Shown: positions 54,078 to 57,999 of the stretch, in pieces
Position numbering within the stretch: the first letter of the stretch is position 1
Layout of the letters: every line of letters begins with the position of its first letter
Assembly (NCBI RefSeq): GCF_900142515.1
Contig: NZ_FRBC01000008.1
Coordinates: 1 to 64,000 of the forward strand
DNA: 64,000 bases
Reading direction: 5' to 3'
Origin: Pseudoselenomonas ruminantium
GTDB taxonomy: Bacteria > Bacillota > Negativicutes > Selenomonadales > Selenomonadaceae
Notes under the pieces: model-generated
Seen by the model: only the letters and a program-made list of their open reading frames with translations
Database searches by the model: none
What the model was told of the DNA's origin: nothing
Translations under genes and position numbers: made by a program

Positions 54078-55136
54078 TTGCCTAGCACAGATTGGATGAG
54101 CTGGATTGATTGGACTCATCTGTTAGAAATGCTGATTGTACCAGTCTGTATCCTGATTGCCGCCCTGACTGCGGGAATCACCCTGAACCGCATGATCCGG
54201 AAACGGGTGATGAATCGCCTGACCAGTGATGAAACCACCTGGCAGACTATTTTTATCAATGCATTGCAGGGAGTTCCCATTTCTCTCTGTCTGGTAGTAG
54301 GGCTCTACTGGATTGTCAATACCATCAACATCATTGAACCATTGGTAAAGATTTTCTCGTATATCCTCTTTACGGTAATCATCATGACGATTACCCGCGT
54401 CATCGCCCGCACGGTCAGCGGCATCATCGATATGCAGATTGAGCGCTCCCAGCAGAAGATGCCTAAGACCACACTCTTAAACGCCATTGTCAACGGCATC
54501 ATCTATGCCATGGGCATTCTGGTGATACTCCAATACTACGGCATCTCCATTGCACCGATCCTCACCGCCCTGGGTGTCGGTGGTATGGCCGTGGCTCTGG
54601 CTCTGCAGGAAACCCTGGCCAATATCTTCTCCGGGTTGCATCTGATTCTCTCCAAGCAGCTGCGCCTGGGCGACTATATCCACCTGAGTTCCGGCGAGGA
54701 AGGCCGCGTCACAGATATTACCTGGCGATTCACCACCATTGTCCCCGTAGGCGAGGGGAATATGGTAGTCATACCGAACCAGAAAATTGCCTCCTCAATC
54801 ATCACGAACTTCAGCATGCCCCGCCATGATATCCTCATCAAGATTCCCGTAGGCGTGGCCTATAACAGCGATTTACAGAAAGTGGAAGAGGTTACGCTGG
54901 ATGTAGCCCGCCAGGTCCTGCTCCAGCTCAACGAGCGACTGGATAAGGACCGCCAGCCAGCGGTGCGTTTCTACAACTTCGGTGAGAGCAGCATCGATTT
55001 CAACGTCCTGCTCCATTCTGCCCGCTTTGACAATCAATTCCTGCTCAAGCACGAATTCATCAAAGCACTCACCGCCAGATACCGGGAAGAAGGCATCGAA
55101 ATCCCCTTCCCCATCCGCACAATCGTACAACAATAA
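54078..55136 (+). CDS. Mechanosensitive ion channel, MscS family
   Basis: A 352-residue membrane channel. About four transmembrane segments precede the pore helix and beta domain: LTALGVGGMAVALALQETLANIFSGL (TM3 with Gly/Ala pattern), then GDYIHLSSGEEGRVTDITWRFT and VVIPNQKIASSIITNFS, which is the MscS signature, and a C-terminal alpha/beta domain. It opens on sudden osmotic downshift. The start codon is TTG 54078 with GGGAGGAATTATT upstream. Confidence 0.94.
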   Translation: MPSTDWMSWIDWTHLLEMLIVPVCILIAALTAGITLNRMIRKRVMNRLTSDETTWQTIFINALQGVPISLCLVVGLYWIVNTINIIEPLVKIFSYILFTVIIMTITRVIARTVSGIIDMQIERSQQKMPKTTLLNAIVNGIIYAMGILVILQYYGISIAPILTALGVGGMAVALALQETLANIFSGLHLILSKQLRLGDYIHLSSGEEGRVTDITWRFTTIVPVGEGNMVVIPNQKIASSIITNFSMPRHDILIKIPVGVAYNSDLQKVEEVTLDVARQVLLQLNERLDKDRQPAVRFYNFGESSIDFNVLLHSARFDNQFLLKHEFIKALTARYREEGIEIPFPIRTIVQQ

Positions 55137-55142
55137 ACCGCA

Positions 55143-55174
55143 GGGGCCGCGAACATTTCGCGACCCCTTTTTTT
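55143..55174. terminator. Terminator between mscS and the chemotaxis receptor gene
   Basis: GGGG-CGCGAA and TTCGCG-CCCC (with one mismatch) form a strong stem followed by TTTTTTT on the plus strand. It ends the mscS transcript; the opposite gene ends at 55177. Confidence 0.85.
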
Positions 55175-55176
55175 AA

Positions 55177-56883
55177 TTAGAACTTGAAATTCCGCAAGGT
55201 ATCCTGCAAATCCTGCGCCAGCTTAGCCAGTGAATCACTGGCATTAGCAATCTCAGCAGCCGAAGCCGACTGCTCCTCCGACACAGCAGATACGTTCTGC
55301 ATTTCATCGGATACCCTGGTGCCCTGCCGGTCAATATCTTCAATATGATGATTGATGACATCGGCATCGGCAGCCACGCCCCGAATGGCTGCAGCCATAT
55401 TTTCGACCTGCGTGGATACTTCATCGACAAATTCCCGAATCTTCTCAAAGGTATTACGTAACTCCTCTACGGAATGCGCGCCTTCCGAAACAGCAGTACT
55501 GCCAGCCCTCATGGACTCCACGGCACTGTTGGTATCGGACTGGATGTCCACAATCAAAAGCGAGATCTGCTCCGCAGCCTCTGAGGACTGTTCTGCCAGT
55601 TTACGTACCTCATCTGCCACCACGGAGAAACCACGCCCCTGCTCACCAGCCCGGGCCGCTTCAATGGCCGCATTCAAGGCCAGCAGATTGGTTTGTTCCG
55701 CAATGCCAGAAATCGTCTCGACAATCTGACCGATTTCCTGTGAACGCTCGCCCAGTTTCCCTACAATGCTTGCGGACTCACCTACTGTAGACTCCACGCC
55801 GCGAATCTGCTTCACCGAAAGCGCAATCGCCTTGGTCCCTGCAATGGCCTGTTCCGATGCCGCATTGGCATGATTGGCTACCCGCTCAGCCTCAGTCTGC
55901 AGCATTTTCACTGAATCGGCCACCTTGCCAACAGCCGTACTGCTTTCAGCAATACCCTGCTGCTGCTGGGAAACGGCCCCGGAAGCCTCCGTTACAGATT
56001 CCGCCACCTGCTGGGATGCCTGTGCAGATTGTTGGAAACTAGCGGTAAGCTGCTCCGAAGCTGAAGCAATATGTTCTGCCGACTCATTGCTTTTTGCCAT
56101 CAAATCATTCAAGGCAACACGTACATCTTCCACGACCCTGGCCATTTCTCCGAACTCATCCTCACGATGCTCCGGCATATCCAGCTGACGGAAATCTCCC
56201 GCCTGCAGGCGCTGGCAGGCAGCCACCATAGCCTTCAAGGGTTTACGGATGACCTGCGTCAGAAGGCCGCCAAACAGCGTCATCAACACCACCGCCACTA
56301 ACGTGATGATTCCCATCGACCACTTGGCAGTCGAAACATCCTGTTCATTCTGCTTGTTGATTTCTTCAGCCTCAGCATAAACAGCTTTCCGCAGCGGCGA
56401 CATACTGGTATCCCAGGCAATGATATCCTTTATGGCCTTGGTTCCGTATAAAGCCCTGGCTTCCTGCTGCTTGCCCTGCAATGACAGCTCCATCATCTTG
56501 TCCACAGAGTCCTTGAAATCCAACCAGTGCTTTTCCACCACATCGACACCTTCTACGTTCTCACCTAAGGCCCGATATTCGCTCCACGTATCCTCATAGC
56601 GTTTCAGATACTTTTCGATATCCTTTTTATTCTTCTGCATCTGCGCCACATCCGTGAGCATGACATTTTCCAAGATCCGCGATTGGATTGCCCGTACTGT
56701 AATCGAACAGTCTCCCAGCAATCTCACAGATTGCATCTTTTGGGCATACATCCTGTCCATGTCCTTCTGAATGCCATTCAGATACGAAACAGAATTCCAG
56801 CCCACAGCTACCAGTGCCAAAACAGCCAAAGCAATCATACAGGCAATCTTGGCACTTACACGCAGGTTATTCAACCAATTCAT
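55177..56883 (-). CDS. Methyl-accepting chemotaxis protein
   Basis: A 568-residue receptor. TM1 (about 12-30), a periplasmic four-helix-bundle sensor (about 32-185), TM2 (about 188-210), a HAMP domain ([19 protein letters not shown] onward) and the cytoplasmic signalling domain with the hairpin tip [41 protein letters not shown]. It controls CheA, so the organism is motile or uses Che-type signalling. Ligand unknown; the 4HB sensor usually binds small molecules or reports on a binding protein. Start preceded by GTGAGGGATGG. Confidence 0.96.
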
Positions 56884-56970
56884 AATCCATCCCTCACATT
56901 CTCAAAAAATCCCTTTCAAAAACAATCTCCTTCCATAATGATGAACAAACTGCGGCACCTCCTTACTCAT

Positions 56971-57071
56971 TATGGATAATGTTATCCACAAAACCTCCAT
57001 TTTCCTGCCTGTGGATAACTTTTTTCACCCCCTTCCATTCCGCGCTCAAGCCCGTTTTCTCCTGTGGATAA
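56971..57071. promoter_or_regulatory. Cluster of DnaA boxes upstream of nrdD-like/nrdG
   Basis: Three exact DnaA boxes, TTATCCACA at 56982-56990 (plus) and at 57010-57018 and 57063-57071 (minus), with a one-mismatch box at 56971-56979 (minus). They lie 16-120 bases upstream of the NrdR-like sites. Known nrd operons of other bacteria are under DnaA control, so a cell-cycle-linked role is plausible. Confidence 0.72.
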
Positions 57072-57086
57072 CGCGGGGGATAAACA

Positions 57087-57134
57087 ACTATATATAGTAT
57101 TACTATTGACTAACAGCCATACATATTGTATAAT
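57087..57134 (+). promoter_or_regulatory. nrdD-like/nrdG promoter with a tandem NrdR-type box pair
   Basis: Promoter: TTGACT (57106-57111), 17 bases, TATAAT (57129-57134). Box 1 ACTATATATAGT (57087-57098) is a perfect palindrome and fits the NrdR consensus core; box 2 (57118-57129) matches 9 of 12 positions. Centres are 31 bp apart, the spacing of known NrdR pairs, and box 2 covers the space before the -10. NrdR would then repress at high ATP/dATP. Confidence 0.7.
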
Positions 57135-57215
57135 TTCTTTACATTCACCACATATGGGTGATTCAAGTCAAACACAGGCCGCAAGGCTAAAAAATACAAA
57201 GGATAGGTGATTATC

Positions 57216-57503
57216 ATGATGGTAAATGATGTAGCAGTAACTATCGATGGTCTCAGCGATGTAACGGAGGCAGAAATCGCCCAGTACATCGGCTATGTGG
57301 AAGAGCAGACCAACGAGAAGCTGAATGAACTCACGCTGACCCCCGCAGCTGATGGTCAGATTCATCTGGACTATGTGCTCCAGCCCCAGAAGTTTGAGCG
57401 CATCCGCCGCATCACGGGTTATCTCGTAGGCACCATCGACCGCTGGAATGACGCCAAAAAGGCTGAAGAACATGACCGCGTAAAGCATACGGTTATGCAC
57501 TGA
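57216..57503 (+). CDS. Small protein with the NrdD glycyl-radical C-terminal segment
   Basis: A protein of about 95 residues starting at ATG 57216 (AGGTG 6 bases upstream). Its C-terminal third (RRITGYLVGTIDRWNDAKKAEEHDRVKHT) matches the glycyl-radical end of class III ribonucleotide reductase NrdD, which reads RRVCGYL...N-GK-E-RVKH; the glycine that carries the radical in NrdD is kept (G71 of the longest frame), while the preceding Cys is Thr. The N-terminal part is not recognised, and the NrdD barrel and zinc site are absent. The gene abuts nrdG (1-bp gap). It may be a separate radical-domain subunit, a repair piece like GrcA for PflB, or a regulatory protein. Full-length nrdD is not in the window. 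Confidence 0.75.
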   Translation: MMVNDVAVTIDGLSDVTEAEIAQYIGYVEEQTNEKLNELTLTPAADGQIHLDYVLQPQKFERIRRITGYLVGTIDRWNDAKKAEEHDRVKHTVMH

Positions 57504-57504
57504 T

Positions 57505-57999
57505 ATGAAAATTCGCATTGCCGGCATTGTGGAAGAATCCATCGTGGACGGTGACGGGCTCAGATTTACGGTATTCACGCAGGGCTGCCCCCATCATTGC
57601 CCTGGATGTCATAACCCCGCTACTCACCCGGCCACAGGTGGCCGCGAAGCCGATACAGATGAGATTCTCACCTATCTGGATGCCAATCCCCTGCTGGACG
57701 GTATCACCTTCAGTGGCGGCGAACCCTTTCTCCAGCCCTCCCCCCTTATCAAGCTTGCCCGTGAGGCTCACGCCCGCGGGCTTGACGTGTGGAGTTATAC
57801 GGGCTTTACGCTGGAAGATTTGCTGGCCAGAAAAAATCCAGCCATCGATACCCTTTTGAAAGAAATCGATGTACTGGTAGATGGCCGTTATGAAGAAAAA
57901 CTTCGGGATCTGACCCTGAACTTCCGCGGCTCCGCCAATCAACGAGTCATTGACATGAATGCCTATCGCAAAACAGGCATCATAAAAACCTTATATTAA
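57505..57999 (+). CDS. nrdG: Anaerobic ribonucleotide reductase activating protein
   Basis: A 164-residue radical SAM enzyme that makes the glycyl radical on NrdD. The 4Fe-4S motif is QGCPHHCPGCHNP (C28, C32, C35), the SAM site TFSGGEPFLQPSPL follows, and the length is right for NrdG. It starts one base after the stop of the small glycyl-radical gene and shares its promoter. Confidence 0.95.
   Translation: MKIRIAGIVEESIVDGDGLRFTVFTQGCPHHCPGCHNPATHPATGGREADTDEILTYLDANPLLDGITFSGGEPFLQPSPLIKLAREAHARGLDVWSYTGFTLEDLLARKNPAIDTLLKEIDVLVDGRYEEKLRDLTLNFRGSANQRVIDMNAYRKTGIIKTLY

Follow-up and report, generated by a model that had tools for sequence, protein, structure and literature searches.

The window analysed here, a 64,000-nucleotide stretch of Pseudoselenomonas ruminantium DNA, carries a short operon of anaerobic nucleotide reduction on its forward strand. 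The leading gene (57216..57503, +) encodes a 95-aa protein whose probable role, based on a profile match, conservation, selection and an AlphaFold2 model, is that of a stand-alone glycyl-radical subunit of class III ribonucleotide reductase (RNR). It is followed by nrdG (57505..57999, +), which starts 2 bases past the stop codon of the small gene and encodes the radical-SAM activase expected of a class III RNR (TIGR02491, 154.4 bits against a cut-off of 126.1). The operon is preceded by a strong sigma-70-type promoter pattern, with a -35 element, TTGACT (57106..57111, +), and a -10 element, TATAAT (57129..57134, +), separated by a 17-bp spacer. Overlapping this promoter is a pair of NrdR-like boxes with no assigned strand, the first (57085..57100; CAACTATATATAGTAT) lying 31 bp from the second (57116..57131; GCCATACATATTGTAT), which overlaps the -10 element. 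The pair score of 24 was reached by none of 500 shuffles, and the same was true of the score of the 31-bp pair at the promoter of the large-subunit ("body") gene described below. These scores were computed with a general consensus of NrdR boxes. The window promoter therefore presents what is expected of a member of the NrdR regulon, namely a box pair about three helical turns apart in a genome (G000) that encodes NrdR itself (contig C52). In the available part of one report, a 15-bp spacer, equal to the 31-bp step seen here, is given as the common one for NrdR boxes (PMC12051234). The DnaA boxes that first drew attention to the locus lie just upstream of the promoter. Several relatives have the end of an MscS-type channel gene as the immediate upstream neighbour of the nrd promoter; in the window (region 54078-57216), the MscS-type gene is separated from the promoter by a chemotaxis receptor gene (55177-56883, -).

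The preliminary description had placed the boxes before an anaerobic nrd operon, which holds for nrdG, but the supposed nrdD proved to be only a C-terminal piece of one. Specifically, the match of the 95-aa product to the NrdD family model PF13597 (562 positions) is confined to its last 31 positions, 532-562, and the protein consists of a conserved N-terminal domain followed by the NrdD glycyl-radical loop alone. At E<=0.001, its Pfam matches are to NrdD models only, and NCBIfam likewise returned NrdD models only for all 43 small-protein members, with no PFL-type radical domain. Fourteen residues are invariant in these 43 proteins (E20, R62, R64, R65, I66, T67, G68, Y69, L70, N78, K81, E84, R88 and H91). 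Among them is the putative radical glycine, Gly68 (codon 57417..57419, +), which aligns to Gly711 of the Prevotella copri NrdD. The small gene is under purifying selection, with dN/dS of about 0.03-0.13 in nine of ten close pairs and a dN of 0 in the tenth. In the AlphaFold2 model, the N-terminal domain adopts a beta-alpha-beta-beta arrangement (block pLDDT of 80-89 as far as residue 60), and the radical loop is of low confidence (pLDDT about 50), as would be expected if the loop folds only within the body. A structure search returned no convincing relative of the N-terminal domain; the best hit, the ToxR periplasmic domain (Z 5.0), and the next, YfiA/HPF, were uninformative, and the attempt to name the fold was abandoned.

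The rest of the enzyme is encoded elsewhere. PF13597 has only two matches in the organism's own genome, the one in the window and one on contig C15 that spans positions 1-534. The C15 gene encodes a 753-aa body containing the ATP-cone, the barrel, both catalytic cysteines and the zinc site; it ends in ...CGYTGLIENECPHCHRKEVESGRFTIKRMK, past the zinc-site cysteines and right before the radical loop would begin. As such, it has the barrel and catalytic cysteines of a class III NrdD without the glycyl-radical loop that belongs on the same chain. Its structural model is mediocre (mean pLDDT 70.7), though a structure search ranks the P. copri NrdD first among best matches that also include the S. 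thermophilus, T4 and T. maritima enzymes. Together, the two pieces tile the one-chain P. copri NrdD (8p23): the body extends to chain residue 707, with both catalytic cysteines aligned and its radical cysteine paired with P. copri Cys416, and the small-protein profile matches chain residues 696-739 (E 1e-11). The available part of the structural report describes this NrdD as 739 residues long with its radical at Gly711 (PMC11226230); small-protein Gly68 aligns to chain residue 715 of the deposited chain, which is 743 long, so that chain 715 would correspond to Gly711. Judged from these alignments, NrdD is split into a body gene and a separate radical-loop gene.

This split is a family trait. 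We searched 81 Selenomonadaceae genomes, the window's included, with the small protein and with PF13597, and counted the results manually from the listings. A tail-less body, fragmentary in a few cases, was identified in 73 of the 81, and it is exactly these 73 that carry the stand-alone small protein. Three others (G011, G030 and G052) encode a fused NrdD that carries the same tail, without a small protein beside it, and the remaining five have neither part, four being without any NrdD match and one (G023) being cut by a contig end. Within this sample, the co-occurrence of predicted tail-less body and small protein is perfect. The split enzyme is not the sole class III RNR everywhere, since three of the 73 genomes (G010, G067 and G074) hold an additional complete NrdD. 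In G021, G063 and G073, two tail-less bodies are found with a single small protein. Two gene arrangements were observed. In the first, the small gene lies a short way downstream of the body (25 of 25 loci, L049-L073, in as many genomes), with the loop encoded 217-337 nt past the body's stop codon; in the second, which is that of the window, the small gene leads its own operon and the body is located elsewhere. Where the small gene leads, nrdG was found downstream by motif in 28 of 33 loci. An internal TGA falls within the match of the small gene at G001:C167 and of a second small-gene copy at G035:C7, and the body at G026:C7 reads through beyond the usual body end in a frame with an internal TGA.

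The small protein is not restricted to this family. In a class-wide sample of 200 Negativicutes genomes (45 Selenomonadaceae and 155 others), at least 53 of the 155 encode a stand-alone copy. Two tail types were seen in the 20 regions examined (RITGYLVGT..RWNNAK and RITGYLST..RFNDAK), and each matches the tail of one NrdD type. Among the class-wide PF13597 matches listed, all of those outside the family end at position 562. In 12 non-family genomes picked for having the small protein, eight (G088, G092, G100, G118, G128, G175, G206 and G243) encode a tail-less type II NrdD, two (G148 and G191) a complete NrdD and one (G213) a fragmentary one; G233 yielded no assignment. In GTDB 220, at least 587 small-protein matches were confirmed, from organisms including Clostridia, Erysipelotrichia, Coriobacteriia, Verrucomicrobiota and Acholeplasmatales; the closest named match is Selenomonas ruminantium (93%). 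Eighty of these were kept, and about 74 are stand-alone, two are complete NrdDs and three are Saccharibacteria of another layout (L251, L256 and L260), in which the NrdD radical tail sits inside a frame of 150-200 aa whose N-terminus differs and whose C-terminus is extended. Among 18 genomes of other classes or phyla with the small protein, 14 also encode a complete NrdD, two show contig-cut pieces that reach the tail, and three have a tail-less body (one of these being also among the 14). One genome, G252, encodes two stand-alone small proteins in addition to one complete and one tail-less NrdD. Finally, in viral contigs, 74 of the best 80 loci (L295-L374) were scored by script as small proteins, although a few of these are frames of just 40-65 aa, possibly exons of an intron- or intein-split gene, and a tail-less body lies within the 3-kb flanks of 12 of the 80. 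Some phage-like contigs carry radical-loop frames of about 50 aa without the N-terminal domain.

Such a distribution invites the suggestion that the 95-aa protein is a spare part only, repairing oxygen-cleaved NrdD and being dispensable for the intact enzyme, as YfiD/GrcA is in its relation to pyruvate formate-lyase (PFL). The 14 genomes with both proteins, the frequency of stand-alone copies among the non-family Negativicutes and the mirroring of the two NrdD tails by the two small-protein types all speak for it. However, the window genome has no loop-bearing NrdD to repair, and the same is true of almost every one of the 73 family genomes with a tail-less body, so that this explanation suits the relatives rather than the window, for which we regard it as quite unlikely. 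Much less probable still is the idea that the small gene is a decaying nrdD remnant or an exon spliced to the body. Its match to just the final 31 positions of the NrdD model is what such a fragment would give, but the gene has its own promoter, is under strong purifying selection, is present in 73 of 81 family genomes and encodes a conserved N-terminal domain without counterpart in fused NrdD. Moreover, it lies either on another contig than the body or downstream of it as a complete frame, and no Rfam match was found in the window stretch or at loci L044, L050, L170 and L117, indicating that no curated intron family is present there; the splicing reading was rejected on these grounds. A detached radical subunit that serves the tail-less body thus remains the preferred explanation for the window.

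How the split arose was addressed with a tree of 63 NrdD bodies. Eight changes between tailed and tail-less states were counted without direction (i.e., loss versus re-fusion), at least six of them forced by well-supported branches, and a single origin of the split was therefore rejected; several branches of this tree are long, that of the window's body included. The body of the window genome (L044) and that of a relative (L075) form a long, divergent branch. Because the N-terminal domain of the family proteins recurs in the small proteins of other phyla, where a complete NrdD is retained, we favour the takeover of function by a pre-existing spare part over the fission of each nrdD.

Turning to regulation, the report of three exact copies of the DnaA box, TTATCCACA, and one single-mismatch copy within 101 bp (56971-57071) was confirmed by motif positions. 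The mismatched box (TTATCCATA; 56971..56979, -) lies 2 bp from the next in inverted orientation; the exact ones are at 56982..56990 (+; exact or with one mismatch in congeners), 57010..57018 (-; kept in congeners) and 57063..57071 (-), the last being promoter-proximal with its start 43 bp upstream of the -35 element. The AT-rich stretch said to adjoin them does exist as a piece of 22% GC at 57080-57139, which is the promoter, whereas the boxes themselves lie in 38-57% GC. Across the whole window, 26 matches with at most one mismatch were found against 14.2 expected; the window overall is just mildly enriched, and it is the local cluster that counts. The genome (3.12 Mb in 59 contigs) contains 112 exact boxes (71+41) against 18 (5+13) for a control pattern, the reversed box. 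Among the 100 positions listed, there are at least eight clusters in which three or more exact boxes share 250 bp or less; random placement of the 112 would give 0.0045. The claim of a density far above chance is thereby borne out, and the proposed genome-wide scan did reveal non-random clustering, but the window cluster is one of eight and not unique. One of the others is the dnaA/rpmH oriC region. The remaining six, with 3-5 exact boxes each (C20:121614-121845, C27:80209-80262, C34:77900-78091, C43:122014-122086, C44:28735-28906 and C16:47916-47949), have as neighbours an integrase, a CYTH/MgtC pair, an AAA/UvrD-like helicase gene, a YgbA_NO gene, a YcbB-type response regulator with an alpha-amylase-family gene, and ptsI/MFS genes. 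Same-strand box pairs 0-3 bp apart occur at five genome sites, oriC included.

Forty-four family loci were examined for boxes, 33 with the small gene leading and 11 with it behind the body, the species being related and the locus counts consequently not independent. The TTGAC-N17..20-TATAAT pattern is present in 32 of the 33 lead-gene loci. At least one exact box lies within 400 bp upstream in 24 of the 33, drawn from eight genera, and at least two boxes with at most one mismatch in 26; altogether, 53 exact boxes were found upstream of the 33 genes against 0.19 expected. Nine of the 33 have no exact box there, including all five of genus g3. Boxes directly upstream of the small gene are absent from the 11 behind-body loci; in the body-then-small-gene arrangement, an exact box precedes the body in 16 of 25 loci. 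By comparison, the 20 solo bodies of lead-gene genomes have no exact box in 8,000 bp of upstream sequence, and NrdR-like pairs are kept at most of them (score >=24 in 13 of 20). The predicted DnaA boxes thus track the radical-subunit operon and not the solo bodies. Their geometry is also conserved. An exact box lies no more than 90 bp from the -35 element in 22 loci, and in 18 of these it is on the minus strand, either 43-44 bp (11 loci) or 52-55 bp (7 loci) away, two distances that are one helical turn apart; the four off-pattern loci have it at 27 bp on the minus strand or at 52, 34 and 23 bp on the plus strand. Conserved boxes at a fixed promoter position, as expected of a DnaA regulon, are therefore found, apart from the nine loci without an exact box.

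These observations bear on what the boxes do. The preliminary description offered DnaA control of dNTP synthesis genes or a titration site, and the former is the better of its two options, with the correction that the operon in question is not nrdDG but one of radical subunit and activase. A site of the datA or DARS kind, serving titration or replication timing and without transcriptional function, gains some credit from the seven other clusters of at least three exact boxes, most of which lie between unrelated genes. Titration alone, however, predicts neither the conservation across genera, nor the constant strand and helical phasing of the box relative to the -35 element, nor the way in which the boxes accompany the operon in both gene arrangements and are missing from the 20 solo bodies. 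We therefore consider it unlikely, if less so than the spare-part-only explanation, and the box geometry favours transcriptional control. As for a replication origin, or part of one, three boxes adjoining an AT-rich stretch might superficially resemble it, but dnaA-dnaN-recF and rpmH-rnpA, along with box clusters of their own, are found at C20:87.8-89.6k and the AT-rich stretch is a promoter, leaving this reading with a negligible probability; it was ruled out. DnaA control of the window operon is accordingly a plausible and better-supported prediction, resting on boxes that recur in 24 of 33 loci and eight genera at helix-phased distances.

Taken as a whole, we think it probable that the class III RNR of this organism is split, with its radical loop supplied in trans by the 95-aa protein from an operon under predicted DnaA and NrdR control. 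In this scheme, the catalytic body on C15, which has no loop, would receive it from the window's small protein; the co-transcribed NrdG would place the radical on Gly68, and the barrel of the body would take up the loop in the way known from one-chain NrdD. The paired NrdR boxes would repress the operon at high dATP, and DnaA would act on this ignition module of radical subunit and activase through boxes on a helical face conserved in many genera, leaving the solo body under NrdR alone. We infer complex formation, radical transfer in trans, binding by DnaA and NrdR and the sign of regulation from the features described above.

Several known systems offer partial parallels. YfiD/GrcA of E. coli and Y06I of phage T4 are likewise small, stand-alone duplicates of the glycyl-radical C-terminus of a large enzyme, and phage carriage is common to the PFL spare parts (Y06I) and the NrdD-type small proteins (PMC8683613, available part). 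The 95-aa protein is, like GrcA/YfiD, a small stand-alone protein with a glycyl-radical domain. It differs in that its tail is of the NrdD type (RRITGYL) rather than the PFL type, and in that its N-terminal domain is predicted to be folded, whereas that of YfiD is reported to be disordered. Furthermore, the large enzyme of Selenomonadaceae has no loop of its own, unlike PFL with YfiD/GrcA, and the part therefore looks obligatory in this family. When compared with the P. copri NrdD, which body and small protein jointly cover with Gly711 and the catalytic cysteines aligned, the radical loop here is on a separate polypeptide with an added N-terminal domain. The split class II RNR NrdJab of Pseudomonas aeruginosa is also a two-polypeptide RNR (PMC9669993, in part), but it depends on adenosylcobalamin, and what has been split off is a C-terminal module rather than the radical site. 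In phages, the coding sequence of nrdD may likewise be found in several pieces, although these breaks, unlike the present one, are ascribed to introns, inteins or endonucleases in the available parts of PMC3653736, PMC12363816 and PMC2988022. One legend in those parts notes no splicing evidence between 230-aa and 91-aa phage nrdD fragments, and the 91-aa fragment might be the same kind of part. The preliminary description knew of no clear example of DnaA control for anaerobic nrdDG; in E. coli, however, DnaA ChIP-seq has detected binding upstream of nrdD (PMC11317965, available part), so that a precedent exists for DnaA at the promoter of an anaerobic nrd gene. Binding in E. coli favours box pairs 2-3 bp apart, whereas here spaced boxes precede the radical-subunit/activase operon.

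With respect to novelty, the available part of Andorfer et al. 2021 names YfiD and Y06I, both of them spare parts of PFL, as the only ones validated, and regards spare parts for other glycyl radical enzymes as possible (PMC8683613). No description of a stand-alone NrdD radical subunit was found in the literature searched, which covers few subscription papers, and it goes unmentioned in the available parts of PMC9669993, PMC9531940, PMC8463856, PMC11528403, PMC12288474 and PMC11194802. Similarly, no description of DnaA at a radical-subunit operon was found.

A more tentative extension, which we consider possible though on balance doubtful, is that the small NrdD radical proteins of several phyla and phages are an "ignition key," a former spare part that repeatedly became obligatory after loss of the NrdD loop. 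One key could serve more than one body, key and activase, rather than the body, would be under DnaA such that the replication initiation state sets how much enzyme is lit, and phages would bring keys of their own. The main result is the split enzyme with a detached radical subunit, for which function in trans is inferred. It provides both a conserved spare-part candidate for class III RNR and lineages whose enzyme has no loop of its own, and the latter turn function in trans into a clean yes/no test with three purified proteins. If borne out, it would mean that an RNR can have its radical site on a subunit of its own, would set right the "anaerobic RNR" names now attached to proteins of about 95 aa, and would reveal a DnaA-controlled route to anaerobic dNTP supply.
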